Source: Gemmatimonadales bacterium
Lineage (GTDB): Bacteria > Gemmatimonadota > Gemmatimonadetes > Gemmatimonadales > GWC2-71-9
DNA length: 64,000 nucleotides
Direction of reading: 5' to 3'
Assembly: GCA_036265815.1 (NCBI GenBank)
Contig: DATAOI010000092.1
Span: 1 to 64,000, forward strand
In this document: piece after piece, positions 38,981 through 54,806 of the stretch
How positions within the stretch are numbered: the first letter of the stretch is position 1
Layout of the letters: each line of letters begins with the position of its first letter
Notes under the pieces: model-generated
Databases searched by the model: none
Seen by the model: the letters and a program-made list of their open reading frames with translations, nothing else
What the model was told of the DNA's origin: nothing
Program-made: the position numbers and the translations under genes

Positions 38981-39054
38981 GCGCTAAGTCCAAGCACCAC
39001 GCGATCTTTGGCAATCTCACCAGCCACAGACGTCCCAGTTCAAACGGAGTGTTC

Positions 39055-44909
<5,855 letters not shown>

Positions 44910-44913
<4 letters not shown>

Positions 44914-46130: not shown

Positions 46131-46238
46131 ACAGACGCGCCCCCCGAGGCGAGACACGCGATGGAGCTTGCGGCGGGTCGCGGACCATACAAAGTTTCTC
46201 TGCCCTACGCGCGTCCCGTTCCTTCGATGGATTCAGGC

Positions 46239-46715
46239 ATGACTCAGCCGGACCCGGTGAACCAGTTCCACCGTACCGAACGTCCGGTCGACGGGTACAC
46301 GGTGCTGGTGGTCGACGACGAGGAAGCGGTGCGCCGGCTGGCGGTCCGGATGCTGACCTGGACCGGCTATCAGGCGCTGGAAGCGCGGCACGGGCGGGAG
46401 GCGCTGGTCACCATCGAGCAACACAACGGGCCGATCCACCTGGTGCTCACCGACATCAAGATGCCGGGGATGAGCGGGCGGGAACTCGGACGTCACGTCG
46501 AACGACGCTGGCCCGGCAAGCCCATCCTTTACATGTCCGGCTTCCCGTCGGAGGTGTTTCAGGGCGGGCTGCTCGAGGCCGGCGCGCCCTTCCTCGCCAA
46601 GCCGTTCACCCAGGAAGACCTCGCCGCCAAGGTGCGGGAGCTGCTGGAGGGTCCTGTCAACTCTGGCGGCTCAGCCGGATCCGATGGCCCTGAGAGGCGA
46701 AGGTCACCTGGTTGA
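46239..46715 (+). CDS. Single-domain response regulator
   Basis: The 158-residue CheY-like receiver has acidic pocket D26/D27, phosphoacceptor D72 (VLTDIKMPGMSG), Thr/Ser switch (L-Y-M-S-G) and Lys in L-A-K-P-F. It has no output domain and is related in sequence to the C-terminal receiver of the kinase at 36520. Its final 19 residues (from V-N-S-G-G-S-A) run antisense through the 3' end of a decayed CheX-like gene, so the natural C-terminus may have been altered. Starts at 46161 or 46227 are also possible; 46239 fits the domain. Confidence 0.85.
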   Translation: MTQPDPVNQFHRTERPVDGYTVLVVDDEEAVRRLAVRMLTWTGYQALEARHGREALVTIEQHNGPIHLVLTDIKMPGMSGRELGRHVERRWPGKPILYMSGFPSEVFQGGLLEAGAPFLAKPFTQEDLAAKVRELLEGPVNSGGSAGSDGPERRRSPG

Positions 46716-47030: not shown

Positions 47031-48326
47031 ATGATCACTGGGGAGCTGGAGGTCACAGCGGCCGATAAGCCCTCGCGTGCTGACAGGGGCCCAGGAGCTG
47101 CGTTGCGTATCATCTGCCCGACCTATTGGTATCCGCAGCACGCGACGGACACGCAGGCCACGTACGTCCACGACATCAACCGGCACCTGGCTCGGCGGGG
47201 GCATTCGGTCACGGTGGTGACCCCCGGCAACCAGTCGCTGCCCGCCTCCGAGAGCTTCGACGGGGTGAAGGTCATCCGGTTTCCCATGGAGCTCCCGGCC
47301 GATCTCACCTACGGCCGGGTGGCCCAGACCCGGGTGAACTACCTCGGCAAGATCGCCCGCGTCGTGGTGATGAGTCACTATCTCCAGGAGCAGTACCGCG
47401 CCACCATGGCGGCCGCCCGGGAGCACCAGGCCGACGTCATCCATGCGCATTGGGCGATTCCCACCGGGCCGGCGGCCGTCCGGGTGGCGCAACGGCTCCG
47501 GATTCCCTCGGTGATCACCATGCACGGAGGGGATGTCTACGTGAACCCCGAGCAGGGGTACGATTTCCCCACCCGCTGGTACGTCCGCCCCGCGTTGCGC
47601 TGGACCCTCCGGAAGGCGGACGCGCTCACCGCGATCACCGAGGACTGCCGGCAGCATGCGCTCCGCGCCGGCGCGCCGGCAAGCTCGATCCGGCTGGTCT
47701 TCAACGGCACCGACCTGGGCCGCTTCAGCCCCGTCGAGCATGGGAACGGCGCGGCCGACCCGCGCTTCGGCGCTCACATGGTCTTCGCCTGCCGGCAGCT
47801 CTTTCCCCGGAAGGGCATCCGGTTTCTCATCGAGGCCGCGGCCCAGCTCAAGCCGCGGTTCCCCGATCTCAAGGTCGTCGTGGCCGGCGATGGTTTCGAG
47901 CGGCCGGAGCTGGTACGGCTGGCGGCCGAGCTGGGGATCGCGGCCGACGTGACCTTCCTCGGCTGGGTCCCCAACACCGAGCTGCCCAGCTACTACCGGG
48001 CCGCGGCGCTGTCGGTGATACCTTCGCTGGAGGAGGGTTTCGGTATTCCGGCGGCGGAGGCGATGGGCTGCGAGACGCCGGTCGTCGCCAGTGATGCCGG
48101 CGGCCTGCCCGAGGTGGTCGAGGACGGGGTCACCGGCCTGGTGGTCCCCCGCGGCAACAGCGCCGCGCTCGCCGCGGCCATCGGCTCGCTGCTGGCCGAT
48201 CCGGAGCGCCGCATGCGAATGGGGCAGGCGGGACGGGAGCGCGCGTTGCGGTTGTTCGACTGGGATCGCACCGCGGCGCAGTTCGAGGAGATCTATCGTG
48301 AAGTGGGAGCCGGGGCACGCCGGTGA
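47031..48326 (+). CDS. GT4-family glycosyltransferase
   Basis: The 431-residue GT-B enzyme shows an N-terminal D-T-Q-A-T-Y-V-H-D-I-N-R-H-L acceptor motif, HAHWAIPTGP and HGGDVYVNP. The donor half shows FACRQLFPRKGIRFLIEAAA, V-V-A-G-D-G, and L-E-E-G-F-G-I-P-A-A-E-A-M-G-C-E-T-P-V-V. It opens the polysaccharide operon; the following gene starts inside its stop (GTGA). The ATG at 47031 follows GGTGGG; the first 35 residues are an extension before the fold starts at L-R-I-I-C-P-T-Y. The frame from 46857 has no support. Confidence 0.88.
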   Translation: MITGELEVTAADKPSRADRGPGAALRIICPTYWYPQHATDTQATYVHDINRHLARRGHSVTVVTPGNQSLPASESFDGVKVIRFPMELPADLTYGRVAQTRVNYLGKIARVVVMSHYLQEQYRATMAAAREHQADVIHAHWAIPTGPAAVRVAQRLRIPSVITMHGGDVYVNPEQGYDFPTRWYVRPALRWTLRKADALTAITEDCRQHALRAGAPASSIRLVFNGTDLGRFSPVEHGNGAADPRFGAHMVFACRQLFPRKGIRFLIEAAAQLKPRFPDLKVVVAGDGFERPELVRLAAELGIAADVTFLGWVPNTELPSYYRAAALSVIPSLEEGFGIPAAEAMGCETPVVASDAGGLPEVVEDGVTGLVVPRGNSAALAAAIGSLLADPERRMRMGQAGRERALRLFDWDRTAAQFEEIYREVGAGARR

Positions 48327-49180
48327 GCGATCGCCTCTTCGTGTTTCGCTGGGACGTGGACCACCGGGTCTGCGTGACTGATGGATTGCCTCGGATCCGC
48401 GCGGTGTGCCGCGACTTCGGTGTGTCCAACACCTTCTTCGTCAACATGGGCCGGTCCACCAACCTCAGGGAATGGCTGGGGACGGGGATCACGCGCTCCA
48501 AGGCCAAACTGGCCGACCGCGAGGCGGTGCACCTCATAAAGAAGACAGGATGGCCTCGATTCCTGGTCGAGACCGCCCTGAGCCGTCCGGTCGGCCTCAG
48601 CTTCGTGCCCGTGCTCCACGCCACCCAGGCGGAGGGTCACGAGCTCGGACTGCACGGCGGGATGGACCATGTGATCTGGAGCCGCCGATTCGGCGAGCTG
48701 CCGGACCGTGTGCTCCAGTCCGACGTGGAGGAGTCGTACGAACACTTCCTGCGCCACTTCGGACGCCCGGCCGGCTTCTCCTCGCCCGGCTTCTATTCCG
48801 ATGAGCGGGTGATGCTGCTGCTCGACCGCCTGGGCTTTCTCTATAACGGTGACGGCATCGGGGGCGCGCCGCATCGGGCGGAGGCGGGCGGTCGTCCGTT
48901 GCGCCACTGGACCATCCCGGTGACGCTCTCGGGCCCTCGTACCATCCCCTTCCTGGAGTATCACGGCGCCAAGGGAACGCCGGAAGCCGTGGTGCTGCGC
49001 CAATTGAGCGAGCACCTGGACGCCAACGAGCTGGTCATCCTCTACGGGCACCCCTGCTATGAGGGCGTGCGTGAGGCGATCCTGCGCAAGGTCTTCGCCA
49101 CGGTGATCGAGCGAGGCTTCCGTTTCGTGACCATGCAGGCGCTGGCCAAGCGATTGCAGGTCGCCGTCCCCACCCGATGA
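48323..49180 (+). CDS. Polysaccharide deacetylase-family protein (NodB/ArnD-like)
   Basis: This 285-residue protein has a divergent NodB fold. The first motif is F-R-W-D-V-D-H (two Asp), the metal-binding step is HELGLHGGMDH, and the later motifs are F-S-S-P-G-F-Y-S-D and ILYGHPCYEG. The enzyme should remove an acyl group from a sugar, as ArnD does on lipid-linked sugars. No signal peptide, so a cytoplasmic lipid-linked or nucleotide-linked substrate is likely. GTG start overlaps the glycosyltransferase stop; the end overlaps wecB (ATGA). Confidence 0.8.
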   Translation: MSDRLFVFRWDVDHRVCVTDGLPRIRAVCRDFGVSNTFFVNMGRSTNLREWLGTGITRSKAKLADREAVHLIKKTGWPRFLVETALSRPVGLSFVPVLHATQAEGHELGLHGGMDHVIWSRRFGELPDRVLQSDVEESYEHFLRHFGRPAGFSSPGFYSDERVMLLLDRLGFLYNGDGIGGAPHRAEAGGRPLRHWTIPVTLSGPRTIPFLEYHGAKGTPEAVVLRQLSEHLDANELVILYGHPCYEGVREAILRKVFATVIERGFRFVTMQALAKRLQVAVPTR

Positions 49181-50289
49181 TCCGGGTCTTGAGCGTCTTC
49201 GGCACCAGGCCGGAGGCCATCAAGATGGCGCCGGTGGTGCGCGCGCTCCAGGCGGCCCCCGGCCGGTTCGAGAGCCTGGTCTGCGTGTCGGCCCAGCACC
49301 GCGAGATGTTGGATCAGGTGCTCAGCGTCTTCGGTCTCCAGGCCGATCACGACCTCGATCTGATGACGCGCGGCCAGACGCCGGCCGAGATCACCGCACG
49401 GGTGCTCGAGGGCCTTCCGCGGCTGCTCCGCCGGGTTCGCCCCGACATTCTGCTGGTCCAGGGCGACACCATGACCAGCTTCGCCGGGGCGTTCGCGGCG
49501 TATCTCGAGCGGATCCCTTCCGGGCACGTGGAGGCGGGGCTCCGCACGGGCGACCGCTGGCAGCCGTTTCCCGAAGAGATGAACCGGGTGCTCACCACCC
49601 GTCTCGCGAGCATCCACTTTGCCCCCACGGCCCAGGCCCATGACCAGCTGCTCGCGGAGGGCGTGCCGGCGGATGACGTGCACCTCACGGGCAACACGGT
49701 CATCGACGCGCTGCTGCAGACGGTCCGGCCGGACTACCGCTTTCGGACGCCGGCGCTCGAGGGGCTGGATTCCGGGCGGCGGCTGGTGCTGATCACGACG
49801 CACCGGCGCGAGAGCTTCGGCGCGCCGCTCCGCTCCACCTGTGCGGCCGTCCGGGAGCTGGCCTGCCGCTTTCCCGACCTGCAGTTCGTGCTTCCGGTCC
49901 ATCCCAATCCCGAGGTCAAAGGGACGGTGGAGGAGCTGCTCCGCGAGGTGCCCGGAATGCATCTGATCGATCCGGTAGACTACGTGGAGTTCGTTCACCT
50001 GATGGCGCGGTCCCACCTGATCCTGACCGACAGTGGTGGCGTCCAGGAGGAAGCCCCCACGCTCGGAAAGCCCGTCCTGGTGCTTCGGGAGGTGACCGAG
50101 CGTCCCGAGGGGGTGGCGGCCGGAACGGCCGTGGTGGTGGGCACCGACCAGACGCGCATCGTCGCGGTGGCGAGCGAGCTCCTGACCTCGGCGGCCGCCT
50201 ACGACCGGATGGCCAACGCGGTGAATCCCTACGGGGACGGCCACGCCAGCGAGCGGATTACCCAAGCACTCGCGGACCGGTTCGGATGA
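49177..50289 (+). CDS. wecB: UDP-N-acetylglucosamine 2-epimerase
   Basis: This 370-residue cytosolic enzyme interconverts UDP-GlcNAc and UDP-ManNAc for surface polysaccharide synthesis. Motifs: FGTRPEAIKMAPVVRAL at the N-terminus, V-Q-G-D-T-M-T-S-F, H-V-E-A-G-L-R-T-G and P-F-P-E-E-M-N-R. Further on are T-T-H-R-R-E-S-F-G, P-V-H-P-N-P and LTDSGGVQEEAPTLGKPVLV. All key residues are kept. It overlaps both neighbours by four bases. Confidence 0.95.
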   Translation: MIRVLSVFGTRPEAIKMAPVVRALQAAPGRFESLVCVSAQHREMLDQVLSVFGLQADHDLDLMTRGQTPAEITARVLEGLPRLLRRVRPDILLVQGDTMTSFAGAFAAYLERIPSGHVEAGLRTGDRWQPFPEEMNRVLTTRLASIHFAPTAQAHDQLLAEGVPADDVHLTGNTVIDALLQTVRPDYRFRTPALEGLDSGRRLVLITTHRRESFGAPLRSTCAAVRELACRFPDLQFVLPVHPNPEVKGTVEELLREVPGMHLIDPVDYVEFVHLMARSHLILTDSGGVQEEAPTLGKPVLVLREVTERPEGVAAGTAVVVGTDQTRIVAVASELLTSAAAYDRMANAVNPYGDGHASERITQALADRFG

Positions 50290-51284
50290 GGTTGTTGGTC
50301 ACCGGGGGCACCGGATTCATCGGGTCCCATCTGGCGGAGGAAGGGCGGCGACGCGGGGCTGAGGTGGCGGTGCTCGGTCTGACCGACCGCCCGGAAGAGC
50401 GCGCCAACGCCGACCGCCTTGCGAAGCAGGGCGTCGAGGTGATCCCGGGAAGCATCACCGACGCCGAGCTCTGCGGCCGTGCGGTCCGCGGGGCCACCCA
50501 CATCTTCCATCTCGCCGTCGCGATGCGGGAAGGCGGCAAGACGGACGAGTTCTTCGAGGCGGTGAATCTCGAGGGAACCCGCCGGCTGCTGGGGGCCGCG
50601 GCGGAAGGGCGGGTAGAGCGGTTCGTGTACTGCAGCACGATCGGGATCTACGGGCATCGGGTGCCGGGCGTCACTCGGGAAGACTCGCCGCTCGCCCCGG
50701 GCAACGTGTACGAGCGGACCAAGGTGGCCGCCGAGCGGATGGTGCGCGAGCTGGCGCCGCCACGCGGTCTGCCGTTCGTGATCCTTCGGCCCGCCGATGT
50801 CTACGGCCCGCGGGACCACCGGCTGCTCAAGCTCTTCGGGGGTGTGAGCCGGGGCAGGTTCCCGCTCTTCGGCTCGGGCGACGGACGCCGTCACATGATC
50901 TACGTGGACGATGTCGTGTCGGCTTTCTTCCTGGCGTGCGAGCGGCCTGAGGCGCTGGGCGAGGCGCTCATTCTGGCCGGGCCGCACCCCTGCACCCTGC
51001 GGGAGCTGATCGAGCTGGTGCGCCGGGAGACCGGCGTTGCGCGGTTCGGCATCCGGCTGCCCCTCGCCCCGATGCTGGCATTGTCGGCCGCGGTCGAGGA
51101 TGCCTGCCGGCTGCTTCACCTGGATCCCCCGATCTACCGGCGGCGCATGGATTTCTTCCGCTCCGACTCGGAGTTCGACACCTCGCGCGCGCGACGAGTG
51201 CTTGGCTGGGCGCCGAAGGTGGAGCTGCCGGACGGGGTGCGGAGAACCTTGGAGGACTACAGGCGATCGGGGGCGTTGGGGTAG
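50286..51284 (+). CDS. NAD-dependent sugar epimerase/dehydratase
   Basis: The 332-residue extended SDR has the Rossmann motif TGGTGFIGSHLAEE, catalytic Y and K in N-V-Y-E-R-T-K-V-A-A-E, the preceding S-T-I-G-I-Y-G, and substrate loops L-R-P-A-D-V-Y-G-P-R-D and H-M-I-Y-V-D-D-V-V. It should act on a nucleotide sugar; whether as 4-epimerase, 4,6-dehydratase or reductase is not clear. ATGA overlap with wecB. A 75-base gap separates it from the methyltransferase. Confidence 0.88.
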   Translation: MRLLVTGGTGFIGSHLAEEGRRRGAEVAVLGLTDRPEERANADRLAKQGVEVIPGSITDAELCGRAVRGATHIFHLAVAMREGGKTDEFFEAVNLEGTRRLLGAAAEGRVERFVYCSTIGIYGHRVPGVTREDSPLAPGNVYERTKVAAERMVRELAPPRGLPFVILRPADVYGPRDHRLLKLFGGVSRGRFPLFGSGDGRRHMIYVDDVVSAFFLACERPEALGEALILAGPHPCTLRELIELVRRETGVARFGIRLPLAPMLALSAAVEDACRLLHLDPPIYRRRMDFFRSDSEFDTSRARRVLGWAPKVELPDGVRRTLEDYRRSGALG

Positions 51285-51359
51285 GAGCGCGGTTCGGGAG
51301 GCGGGGCGGGGTCCGCCATGGTGGCATGCTATCATTCGAGATCAACCAAGAGGTCGCGC

Positions 51360-52166
51360 GTGGCTGAGCCTTGGCAGTTGCAACTGTACCGCCGGTCCCT
51401 CAAGAAGAAGCTCACGGTCGAGGCCCTGCTGCGGCACCTGCCGCCGGTGCAGGGGCGGCTCTGCCTGGAGCTCGGCTGCGGGACGGGGCTCACCTCGCAT
51501 TTCCTCCGGGAGCGCGGCGGCACCTGGGTCAGCTGCGACTTCGAGCGGGACCATGCCCGCTCCGCCCGCCAGTTGGTGGGAGACCGCGTGCTCCAGATCA
51601 CCGAGCGCGAGCTCCCCTTTCGGAGCGGGGCGTTCGATCTGGTCGCGGCGATCAACTTCCTGGAGCACATCGAGGATGACGAGACCTTCTTCGCCGAGAT
51701 GGTACGGGTGCTGAAGCCGGGCGGGGATTTCCTCTTCATGGCACCCAAGGGAGAGACCGGCCGCCCCGGATTCGCCCTCAAGCGCATGCTGGGCTTCACC
51801 GCCGATCGGGAGGGATTCGGGCATGCGCGGGACGGCTATCCGCCCGCGGCGGCCGGGGCCCTGATGCAGCGCCACGGGCTCGTGGTCCAGGGCCAGGACG
51901 ACTACTGCCGCCTCTTTACCGAGTCGCTGGAGGACCTGCTCAACTACGCCTACCACCGGAAATCGGCCAAAGGCAAGCAGAGCGAGGAGCAGGATTTCCA
52001 CGGCGACACCGCGCCGATGTCGGCGGAGGCGCTGAATCGGGTGGGCACGGCCTATAAAGTTTATTCGGCGGTGTACCCGGCCCTCCGTGCGTGGACCCTG
52101 CTGGACAACCTGATCCCCTTCTCCCCGGGCTACATGATGGTAGCCTGGGGCAAGCGGGCCGCCTGA
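51360..52166 (+). CDS. Class I SAM-dependent methyltransferase
   Basis: The 268-residue enzyme has motif I CLELGCGTGLTSHF, motif II acidic W-V-S-C-D-F-E-R, and F-D-L-V-A-A-I-N-F-L-E-H-I-E-D-D in the post-I region, then V-L-K-P-G-G. The C-terminal third is specific. Likely it methylates a glycan or lipid carrier in this cluster. The GTG at 51360 is chosen since AAGAGG lies seven bases before it; an ATG at 51318 is weaker. The end is one base before asnB. Confidence 0.83.
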   Translation: MAEPWQLQLYRRSLKKKLTVEALLRHLPPVQGRLCLELGCGTGLTSHFLRERGGTWVSCDFERDHARSARQLVGDRVLQITERELPFRSGAFDLVAAINFLEHIEDDETFFAEMVRVLKPGGDFLFMAPKGETGRPGFALKRMLGFTADREGFGHARDGYPPAAAGALMQRHGLVVQGQDDYCRLFTESLEDLLNYAYHRKSAKGKQSEEQDFHGDTAPMSAEALNRVGTAYKVYSAVYPALRAWTLLDNLIPFSPGYMMVAWGKRAA

Positions 52167-52167
52167 T

Positions 52168-54126
52168 ATGTGCGGCATCGCCGGCAAACTCGGCCCGGAC
52201 CCCATCGTCGAGGCGGAGATCATCCGGATGTGCGACGCGATCGCACATCGGGGGCCCGACGACTGGGGCGCTTTCGTCGAGGGCGGCGTGGGGCTGGGGA
52301 TGCGCCGGCTCAGCATCATCGATATCGCCGGCGGGCACCAGCCGCTGACCAACGAGGATGGCAGCGTGGTGGTGGTCTTCAACGGAGAGATCTACAACCA
52401 CGAGAGCCTGCACCAGGAGCTCGCGGCACGGGGTCACCAGTTCCGCAGCCGAGCCGACACCGAAGTGCTGGTGCATCTCTACGAGGAGGAAGGCGAGCGC
52501 ATGCTGCAGCGGCTTCGCGGCATGTTCGCCTTCGCGATCTGGGACCGCCGCCGGCGCCGACTGCTGCTCGCCCGGGACCACTTCGGCCAGAAACCGCTGT
52601 TCTACACCGAAGACGGCGGACGGATCACCTTCGCCTCGGAGATCAAGGCGCTCCTGGCCGATGATCCCGGGCTCGCGGCGCTGGACCCGTTCGCGCTGGA
52701 CCAGTATCTCACGCTGCGCTTCGTGCAGCCGCCGGACACGTTCTTTCAGCGCGTCCGGTCGCTCCCGCCGGCGCATTTCCTGGTCTGGGAGAACGGCGTC
52801 TCACGCATCGAGCGCTACTGGGACCTGCCGTACGGCTCCAAGTGGACCTATTCCGAGGCGGAGATCCTCGAGCGGATCGACGGACTGCTGGCGGAGACGG
52901 TGCGGCTCCACCTCACCAGCGACGTGCCGGTCGGGGCCTTCCTCAGCGGCGGGCTGGACTCGACGCTGATCGCCTCGTACGCGGCCAAGGTCCTGGGGCC
53001 CGAGCTCCGCACCTTCTCGATGGGCATCCCCTACCGGGACCTGAACGAGCTCCCGGCCGCCGCGGCCGTGGCGGCGCGTTACGAGACGAGGCATTTCGCC
53101 CAGGAAGTCACCCCCAGCGTCGTGGACGATCTCCCACGCCTCATCTCCGCCCTCGACGAGCCGGCCGATCCGCTGTCGATCTGCCTGCTGCATCTGGCAC
53201 AGATGACCGCGCGGGAGGTGAAAGTTGTCCTGGGCGGTGATGGCGGCGACGAGCTCTTCGGCGGATACGACCGGTACGCGGCCGGCCGCTGGCTGGACGC
53301 CTACGGCGCCGTGCCCGAGGTGGTGCGGGATCTGGTGGCCGATCAAGTCCTCCGCCGGCTGCCCGACCAGTTCACCTTCAAGAGCCTGACCCACAAGCTG
53401 CGCTGGGTGGACCAGATGGCGAGGAAGACCGGAGGCGACCGGTACTCCGAGAGCCTGCAGTTCTTCTGGTTCAACCAGGCGCACCGGGCCGAGCTGTACA
53501 CGCCCGAGTACCGGGCGACCTTGGGGAGCCGGCGCCCGGACGCCTGCCTGCTGGACCTGTACGCCACGACGCAGGCCGACGCGCCGCTGGACCGCATGCT
53601 GTACGTGGACACCATGTCGCGGCTGCCGGGCCAGTCGCTCATGATCCTCGACCGCGCGACGATGGCGTACAGCCTGGAGTCCCGGTCGCCGTTCCTCGAT
53701 CCCCGGATGACGGAGTTCATGGCCCGGGTCCCGACCGAGCTCAAGGTCCGGGGCAACCGGCTTCGTTATCTGGAGCGACGACTGGCGGAACGCTATCTGC
53801 CGGCCGCGGTGCTGCGGCGGAAGAAGCAGGGATTCGCGTCGCCGCTCATGTACATCATGGAGGAAGAGGTGCGCACCCTCGCCCCGCGGCTCCTCTTCCG
53901 GAGCGAGCTGGTGCGGGACGGCTATCTCCAGGCGTCGCGCGTCCAGCAGCTGGTGGATGAGCACCTGAATCGCCGGCGGGATCACGGCAACCGGATCTGG
54001 CTGCTGCTGAGCGCCGAGGTGTGGTACCGCCGGTACATCGGCGGCCGGTCCGCGGCGGATCTCGAGGCGGAGCTGTCCGACCGCCGCCCGGAGCCCGGAG
54101 GCGCGCTGGCCAGGAGCGCGGGATGA
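52168..54126 (+). CDS. asnB: Asparagine synthase (glutamine-hydrolysing)
   Basis: This 652-residue two-domain enzyme has the glutaminase Cys2 (M-C-G-I-A-G), H-R-G-P-D-D-W and F-N-G-E-I-Y-N-H in the N-terminal Ntn domain, and the ATP-pyrophosphatase loop FLSGGLDSTLIAS in the synthase domain. GGDGGDELFGGYDRY and the lysine in K-K-Q-G-F follow. In polysaccharide or exosortase clusters such paralogues probably amidate a sugar acid or a peptide rather than make asparagine. Its stop overlaps the next gene (ATGA). Confidence 0.93.
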   Translation: MCGIAGKLGPDPIVEAEIIRMCDAIAHRGPDDWGAFVEGGVGLGMRRLSIIDIAGGHQPLTNEDGSVVVVFNGEIYNHESLHQELAARGHQFRSRADTEVLVHLYEEEGERMLQRLRGMFAFAIWDRRRRRLLLARDHFGQKPLFYTEDGGRITFASEIKALLADDPGLAALDPFALDQYLTLRFVQPPDTFFQRVRSLPPAHFLVWENGVSRIERYWDLPYGSKWTYSEAEILERIDGLLAETVRLHLTSDVPVGAFLSGGLDSTLIASYAAKVLGPELRTFSMGIPYRDLNELPAAAAVAARYETRHFAQEVTPSVVDDLPRLISALDEPADPLSICLLHLAQMTAREVKVVLGGDGGDELFGGYDRYAAGRWLDAYGAVPEVVRDLVADQVLRRLPDQFTFKSLTHKLRWVDQMARKTGGDRYSESLQFFWFNQAHRAELYTPEYRATLGSRRPDACLLDLYATTQADAPLDRMLYVDTMSRLPGQSLMILDRATMAYSLESRSPFLDPRMTEFMARVPTELKVRGNRLRYLERRLAERYLPAAVLRRKKQGFASPLMYIMEEEVRTLAPRLLFRSELVRDGYLQASRVQQLVDEHLNRRRDHGNRIWLLLSAEVWYRRYIGGRSAADLEAELSDRRPEPGGALARSAG

Positions 54127-54806
54127 GCTCCCGGCTCGCGCCGGTTCGCCCGACCGCTGCGTCCGGTCCGGACACGGCTGCGACGCTGCTGCTGTCGTCC
54201 TACCCCTGGGAGGCGGATCGCGCCGAGCTGCCGCTCGGCACGGCCGTCCAGCGGTTCCGCGACGTGAACGGGTACGTGGGGCTGCCGATTCCCGCCAAGC
54301 CGGCGTTTCTCAAGGTCTTTCGGCGGCTGATCAACGGGTCCCGGCCGCCGGAGCAGATCTACCTGGTCCACGACGCCTCGCACGTGCTCACCGGCACCAC
54401 CTTCACCCATGACGAGCCGCCGCTGGTGCTGCTCGCCGGGGAAGCGGTGGAGCAGGGCCTCTACTTCGCTTCTCGCGGCGTGCCCCGGTGGGTGGGCTGG
54501 GTCCTGTTCTACGGGGGCGCGTTCCTCGAATGCGCGCGGAGAATCGCGTCTTTCCGGCAGGTCTTTCGCGGGATCCGGCTGGGCCTCTTCAACCGCGCCT
54601 ATCGCTATGCTGAGCGCACCCGCCTCACCGATCTCTTCACCATGCCGGTCGACCAGCTCTGGGAGTTGCCGGTTGAAGAGGCGCGCCGGCGGCTCGGCAT
54701 GCCCATCGAGGGGGCCGCGGCGGAGCTCTACCGGGAGATTCCCATTCCGTCGGCGATGGCTGAGGCGCTCAGGCGGGAGTGGCGAGCCCTCGGGACGGAG
54801 AAATAG
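54123..54806 (+). CDS. Coq4-like protein of unknown function
   Basis: The 227-residue protein carries IYLVHDASHVLTG at 79-91, which has the metal motif H-D-x-x-H (H83, D84, H87) followed by L-T-G, as in Coq4 proteins. An acid for a fourth ligand (E98 or E106) follows. The Coq4 family takes part in ubiquinone synthesis, binding the isoprenoid intermediate, but here the gene ends a glycan operon. An isoprenoid-linked substrate such as undecaprenyl-glycan is an attractive inference. ATGA overlap with asnB. Confidence 0.6.
   Translation: MSSRLAPVRPTAASGPDTAATLLLSSYPWEADRAELPLGTAVQRFRDVNGYVGLPIPAKPAFLKVFRRLINGSRPPEQIYLVHDASHVLTGTTFTHDEPPLVLLAGEAVEQGLYFASRGVPRWVGWVLFYGGAFLECARRIASFRQVFRGIRLGLFNRAYRYAERTRLTDLFTMPVDQLWELPVEEARRRLGMPIEGAAAELYREIPIPSAMAEALRREWRALGTEK

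Follow-up and report, generated by a model that had tools for sequence, protein, structure and literature searches.

A divergent relative of Coq4 encoded at the end of a conserved glycan-type operon in Gemmatimonadales

COQ4 is now described as a C1 oxidative decarboxylase of prenylated coenzyme Q (CoQ) precursors (PMC11495197); a structural role has also been described, with a scaffold proposed in the CoQ synthome (PMC9774615, PMC11495197), and the Coq4 site follows the pattern HDxxH-(X)10-13-E (PMC9774615). That Coq4 relatives may serve purposes other than ubiquinone synthesis has already been proposed for plants, in which a COQ4 paralog co-expressed with shikonin genes was suggested to assemble a metabolon (PMC8969065). 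The literature that we searched for Coq4 relatives in bacterial gene clusters or neighborhoods held nothing on point. Coq4 proteins are also annotated on cyanobacterial plasmids, and cyanobacteria use plastoquinone. A DNA-pattern scan of viral contigs additionally returned 19 contigs (L071-L089), all with clear Coq4 proteins scoring 97-171 bits; in one of them (L080:5037-5849, IMGVR_UViG_3300047560_001719), the Coq4 gene is placed between an apparent T4-type terminase large subunit and a tail sheath. Coq4 genes thus appear to be present in some T4-like phages; a tblastn search for Coq4 in 50,697 phage records returned none.

Here, we describe a protein, named COQ4L, encoded in the analyzed stretch of 64,000 nucleotides (the window) from a Gemmatimonadales bacterium. 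It is the product of the last of seven co-directional genes arranged end to end between positions 47031 and 54806 on the forward strand, which, together with the relevant regions of COQ4L, comprise the following features:

47031..48326, forward strand: GT4 glycosyltransferase, MshA/PimA/TuaC-like retaining GT-B (PF00534, 1.2e-45; PDB matches MshA, PimA and BshA)
48323..49180, forward strand: ArnD-like metal-dependent sugar deacylase with D11-x-D13, H110...H115 and YGHPCYEG (NCBIfam ArnD and PDB 8T0J matches, see below)
49177..50289, forward strand: WecB, non-hydrolyzing UDP-GlcNAc 2-epimerase, which makes UDP-ManNAc (TIGR00236, cut-off of 210 passed with 469 bits)
50286..51284, forward strand: extended SDR, an NAD-dependent sugar epimerase/dehydratase or reductase (PF01370, 1.2e-41)
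51318..52166, forward strand: class I SAM-dependent methyltransferase (PF08241, 1.2e-19)
52168..54126, forward strand: AsnB-type glutamine-dependent amidotransferase with Cys2 and SGGLDS present (PF00733, 1e-84; TIGR01536, 450 bits, above cut-off)
54123..54806, forward strand: COQ4L, divergent Coq4 relative of 227 aa (profile and fold matches, see below)
54369..54395, forward strand: HDASHVLTG motif of COQ4L, residues 83-91 (H83, D84, H87)
54408..54443, forward strand: loop and helix start of COQ4L, residues 96-107, with invariant H96, E98, G106 and E107, eight residues longer than in Coq4

A reading made from the window's letters alone (hereafter, the sequence-only reading) had described this region as an operon of mostly overlapping genes, and indeed all seven genes were found in place with 4-base overlaps at four of the six junctions (GT4/deacylase, deacylase/WecB, WecB/SDR and AsnB/COQ4L), the remaining two being separated by 33 bases (SDR/methyltransferase) and a single base (methyltransferase/AsnB). 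The SDR also matched TIGR03466 (HpnA) at 7.5e-42, below its cut-off, and UDP-glucose epimerases were among its PDB matches. Immediately upstream of the operon, a single-domain response regulator (46161-46715) is conserved in position across seven related genomes with 72-89% identity and may regulate the operon or share its promoter region; beyond it, a gltX-like gene was detected in several genomes. Farther away in the window (39049-44913), a 1954-aa protein carries about ten near-identical repeats, read as HAMP-type, followed by a GAF-like region, a histidine kinase and receiver domains.

Of the ten genomes of the genus that were examined, eight, the one with the window included, encode close homologs of COQ4L (73-78% identity), and one further homolog was found in a genome placed in another genus of the same family. 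The same group only was recovered by six peptide patterns run against 84,980 species, one genome per species, in a scan that detects close relatives only. Outside the genus, a nine-row profile search of the phylum produced only weak partial matches (E 0.005-0.05, up to 17 bits), which we took as noise, and neither tblastn of plasmids nor a peptide-pattern scan of viral contigs returned COQ4L. Operon gene order was preserved in nine genomes, and a search of the neighborhoods, proposed in the sequence-only reading, revealed that linkage to asnB is conserved, COQ4L directly following this gene in nine of the ten genomes in which the end of asnB is resolved. The exception, G006 (L053), keeps the six other operon genes and shows 1.7 kb without COQ4L after asnB, and the G003 contig breaks off within asnB. 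An unrooted tree built from five operon proteins pairs G003 with G006, next to the COQ4L-bearing G009, an arrangement that fits a loss of COQ4L but, for want of a root, stops short of proving it. Six pairwise comparisons of COQ4L gave dN of about 0.2 against dS of 0.8-1.7, with third-position changes dominating; COQ4L is therefore a real gene under purifying selection. Two genomes with a full copy additionally carry pieces of a second COQ4L copy at contig edges (L063 in G005:C50; L057 in G008:C10), which reflect either true duplication or assemblies that mix strains. In three genomes, a gene for a probable multi-spanning membrane protein (YLWAF...APTTAFWDTSEYI; L058:10419-12722, L061:6589-8856 and L060:1268-3427) lies close to the downstream end of the operon, in convergent orientation; the protein resembles DUF2723 glycosyltransferases and is a possible user of lipid-linked sugars.

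The relationship of COQ4L to Coq4 lies beyond routine detection. No useful family match was obtained in single-sequence scans of Pfam, NCBIfam and PHROGs; the Pfam Coq4 family (PF05019) was not matched at its cut-off by COQ4L and five homologs, and a PF05019 search of its own genome (G000) returned nothing. We therefore relied on profile-profile comparison, using a Coq4 profile of plasmid-encoded Coq4 proteins gathered with a human COQ4 query, which was retained as one row of the alignment. This comparison (hhalign) aligned residues 36-196 of COQ4L with probability 96, E 2e-9 and a score of 65, and a merged set of 16 Coq4s gave E 8.8e-10, the aligned columns numbering 130-138 across the comparisons from E 2e-9 to 9e-10. 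Controls remained far below the real score, with maxima of 21 for 200 column shuffles of Coq4 and 26 for 100 shuffles of COQ4L, and 15 for a reversed profile. The match persisted without the human row (E 1.6e-8) and with either the HDxxH motif (E 3.6e-7) or the C-terminal motif (E 1.4e-5) masked, falling to only E 0.002 when both were masked; it was weaker with eight viral-contig Coq4s alone (E 2.4e-4). Searched against the PDB, the COQ4L profile scored best with 3MSQ, at a nonsignificant E of 0.54.

The HDxxHxxTG motif, noted in the sequence-only reading, is present at residues 83-91, and H83, D84 and H87 are invariant in nine homologs, as is E107. Two invariant glutamates are candidates to complete a metal site. 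E98 lies at a spacing of 10 from HDxxH, within the published range; the alignments instead pair E107, at a spacing of 19, with the glutamate of Coq4, both standing in a GE context, across an eight-residue insertion that holds the invariant H96. Structure prediction was mixed in its outcome. The first AlphaFold2 model, built with nine close homologs (pLDDT 81, pTM 0.81), had no match in the PDB or viral structure libraries, Coq4 included. For the second (pLDDT 82, pTM 0.81), six viral-contig Coq4 rows were added to the alignment, which makes the fold test less independent; with these rows in its alignment, Foldseek ranked 3MSQ first (E 0.021, probability 1.00; 22% identity over 176 columns), the next match having E 3.1, but the model superposed poorly on 3MSQ (TM 0.38-0.41, rmsd 10.6). 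The expectation of a Coq4 fold was thus borne out only in part, as the second model ranked 3MSQ first but the first model had no match and the superposition was poor.

A chance occurrence of HDxxHxxTG in a protein unrelated to Coq4 would agree with the unmatched first model and with the five homologs, which had no Pfam match even at E 10. We nevertheless regard this explanation as disfavored and very improbable, given the profile match and its shuffled and reversed controls, the similarity that outlasts masking of either motif and the second fold search, in which 3MSQ stood about 150-fold ahead of the next match. That COQ4L is a remote, divergent Coq4 relative, and not a standard Coq4 member, is well supported by these profile comparisons, and the Coq4-likeness first noticed from the motif holds. 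The protein is predicted to be a metal-binding, all-helical Coq4 relative.

Given that prenylated quinone precursors are the substrates of known Coq4 proteins, COQ4L might still serve quinone biosynthesis, its position in the operon being accidental. A role in ubiquinone synthesis is unlikely, however, because COQ7 was absent from all 11 genomes tested (relatives) and PF05019 from 346 Gemmatimonadota genomes, this judgment being made by proxy from marker genes and operon context. MenA (TIGR00751) was likewise found in 0 of 11 genomes, a result uninformative alone since the futalosine pathway was outside the search. Against an accidental position also stand the conserved linkage and 4-base overlap with asnB, as well as the narrow range in which COQ4L was found, one genus plus a single sister genome, when quinone synthesis is widespread; we hold the quinone explanation to be highly unlikely.

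The other operon members offer hints of their own on the substrate. The deacylase had been called NodB-type, a label that does not stand, since PF01522 (NodB/CE4) was unmatched at E up to 1. Its best NCBIfam match is ArnD (PRK15394, 3.8e-15, 55.9 bits against an unreached cut-off of 382 bits) and its best solved relative is ArnD as well (PDB 8T0J, 4.4e-8), with which it shares D-V-D and the HELGLH...DH motif. It differs in the second metal motif, H110-xxxx-H115, one residue longer than the HxxxH of ArnD, and in that no other arn genes were identified in the operon. These motifs, D11 and D13 included, are invariant in ten orthologs, and the deacylase, as COQ4L, is strong solely in the same genus and sister group. 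ArnD deformylates an undecaprenyl-phosphate-linked sugar (Ara4FN), and because the deacylase is nearest to ArnD, a lipid-linked (undecaprenyl) sugar substrate is hinted at independently of COQ4L. As for the amidotransferase, its best NCBIfam match is the XrtA/PEP-CTERM exopolysaccharide amidotransferase (TIGR03108), reached with 517 bits but below the cut-off of 817; the exosortase association that this suggested was rejected, PF09721 being found in 0 of 11 genomes. The sequence-only reading had supposed amidation of a uronic-acid or peptide-like product; carboxylate amidation fits AsnB, but the operon showed no sugar-nucleotide 6-dehydrogenase that would supply a uronic acid.

The same reading had argued that Coq4 binds isoprenoid quinone precursors and that COQ4L may handle an isoprenoid-linked glycan. 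The link between Coq4 and isoprenoids looks stronger than it is, because 3KB4, the structure with geranylgeranyl monophosphate, is obsolete and its replacement, 6E12, has Mg, the figure depicting oleic acid (PMC9774615). An isoprenoid-linked substrate stays reasonable, because COQ4 is described as a decarboxylase of prenylated precursors (PMC11495197), and the handling of an isoprenoid-linked glycan by COQ4L is plausible but unproven.

Building on the demonstrated gene order, gene families, purifying selection and Coq4 homology with its metal-ligand motif, we favor, with slightly less than even confidence, a chromosomal operon that makes and tailors a ManNAc-derived surface glycan, probably linked to undecaprenyl or another lipid, COQ4L being an optional metal-dependent step or scaffold on it. 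WecB would supply UDP-ManNAc, the SDR would alter a nucleotide sugar and the GT4 enzyme would move a sugar onto a membrane acceptor. The ArnD-like enzyme would strip an N-acyl group off the amino sugar on its lipid carrier, with methylation by the methyltransferase and amidation by AsnB. COQ4L would then act at the membrane on the lipid-linked intermediate, either by metal-dependent catalysis or by binding lipid and serving as a scaffold to the remaining operon enzymes; its step would be optional because one genome, G006, lacks it. These enzyme steps are what we infer, as is the lipid carrier, because the operon yielded no identifiable polyprenyl-phosphate sugar transferase, flippase, polymerase or ligase.

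The product might instead be a soluble or peptide-like small molecule, glycosylated, amidated and methylated, with COQ4L as a metal-dependent tailoring enzyme on a non-isoprenoid part, for example by oxidative decarboxylation or hydroxylation in the manner of human COQ4. The best solved relative of AsnB (7YLZ) is a hydroxyamidotransferase, the GT4 relatives include MshA and BshA, makers of small thiols, and the decarboxylase activity described for COQ4 (PMC11495197) would agree with such a route; the kinship of the deacylase with a lipid-linked-sugar enzyme and the failure to identify a peptide synthetase, carrier protein or exporter in the operon weigh against it, leaving it an unlikely alternative. 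Somewhat less probable, to our judgment, is a purely non-catalytic COQ4L that brings the operon enzymes together at the membrane, the kind of role proposed for COQ4 within the CoQ synthome. The structural role described for COQ4, the metabolon proposed for the shikonin paralog (PMC8969065) and the genome that manages without COQ4L would all suit a scaffold, although strict invariance of the metal-ligand residues in nine homologs goes beyond what a pure scaffold needs. COQ4L could even found its own branch within the Coq4 superfamily, as an enzyme that depends on metal and chemically modifies a polyprenyl-linked sugar or the carboxylate of that sugar. We consider this proposal doubtful; if true, the ancestral activity of the fold would concern isoprenoid-linked head groups generally, and not quinone precursors alone.

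Like the plant shikonin paralog (PMC8969065), COQ4L belongs to the Coq4 relatives for which a role apart from ubiquinone synthesis is proposed, but the shikonin pathway still yields a prenylated quinone, whereas the COQ4L operon is glycan-like. The chemistry of Coq4, C1 oxidative decarboxylation, has been assigned only recently, and the previously unrecognized COQ4L family, which escapes the searched Pfam, NCBIfam and PHROGs libraries, is a separate system for asking what the Coq4 fold binds and does, with no sign of ubiquinone, linkage to sugar enzymes and one otherwise equal operon from which it is missing. Its existence suggests that a soil bacterium seemingly without CoQ synthesis employs the Coq4 fold for another purpose. 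Set beside Coq4 itself (PF05019; Nostoc 3MSQ and 6E12; human COQ4), COQ4L diverges in falling below Pfam detection at about 20% identity, in not retaining the Gln of 'AQT', in the eight-residue insertion between TG and GE, and in sitting in a glycan operon without a ubiquinone pathway marker. It nonetheless preserves the collinear series of an LG...helix, HDxxHxxTG, GE and the C-terminal 'W...P...R..LG', together with the invariant H, D, H and E and the profile match at E 2e-9.
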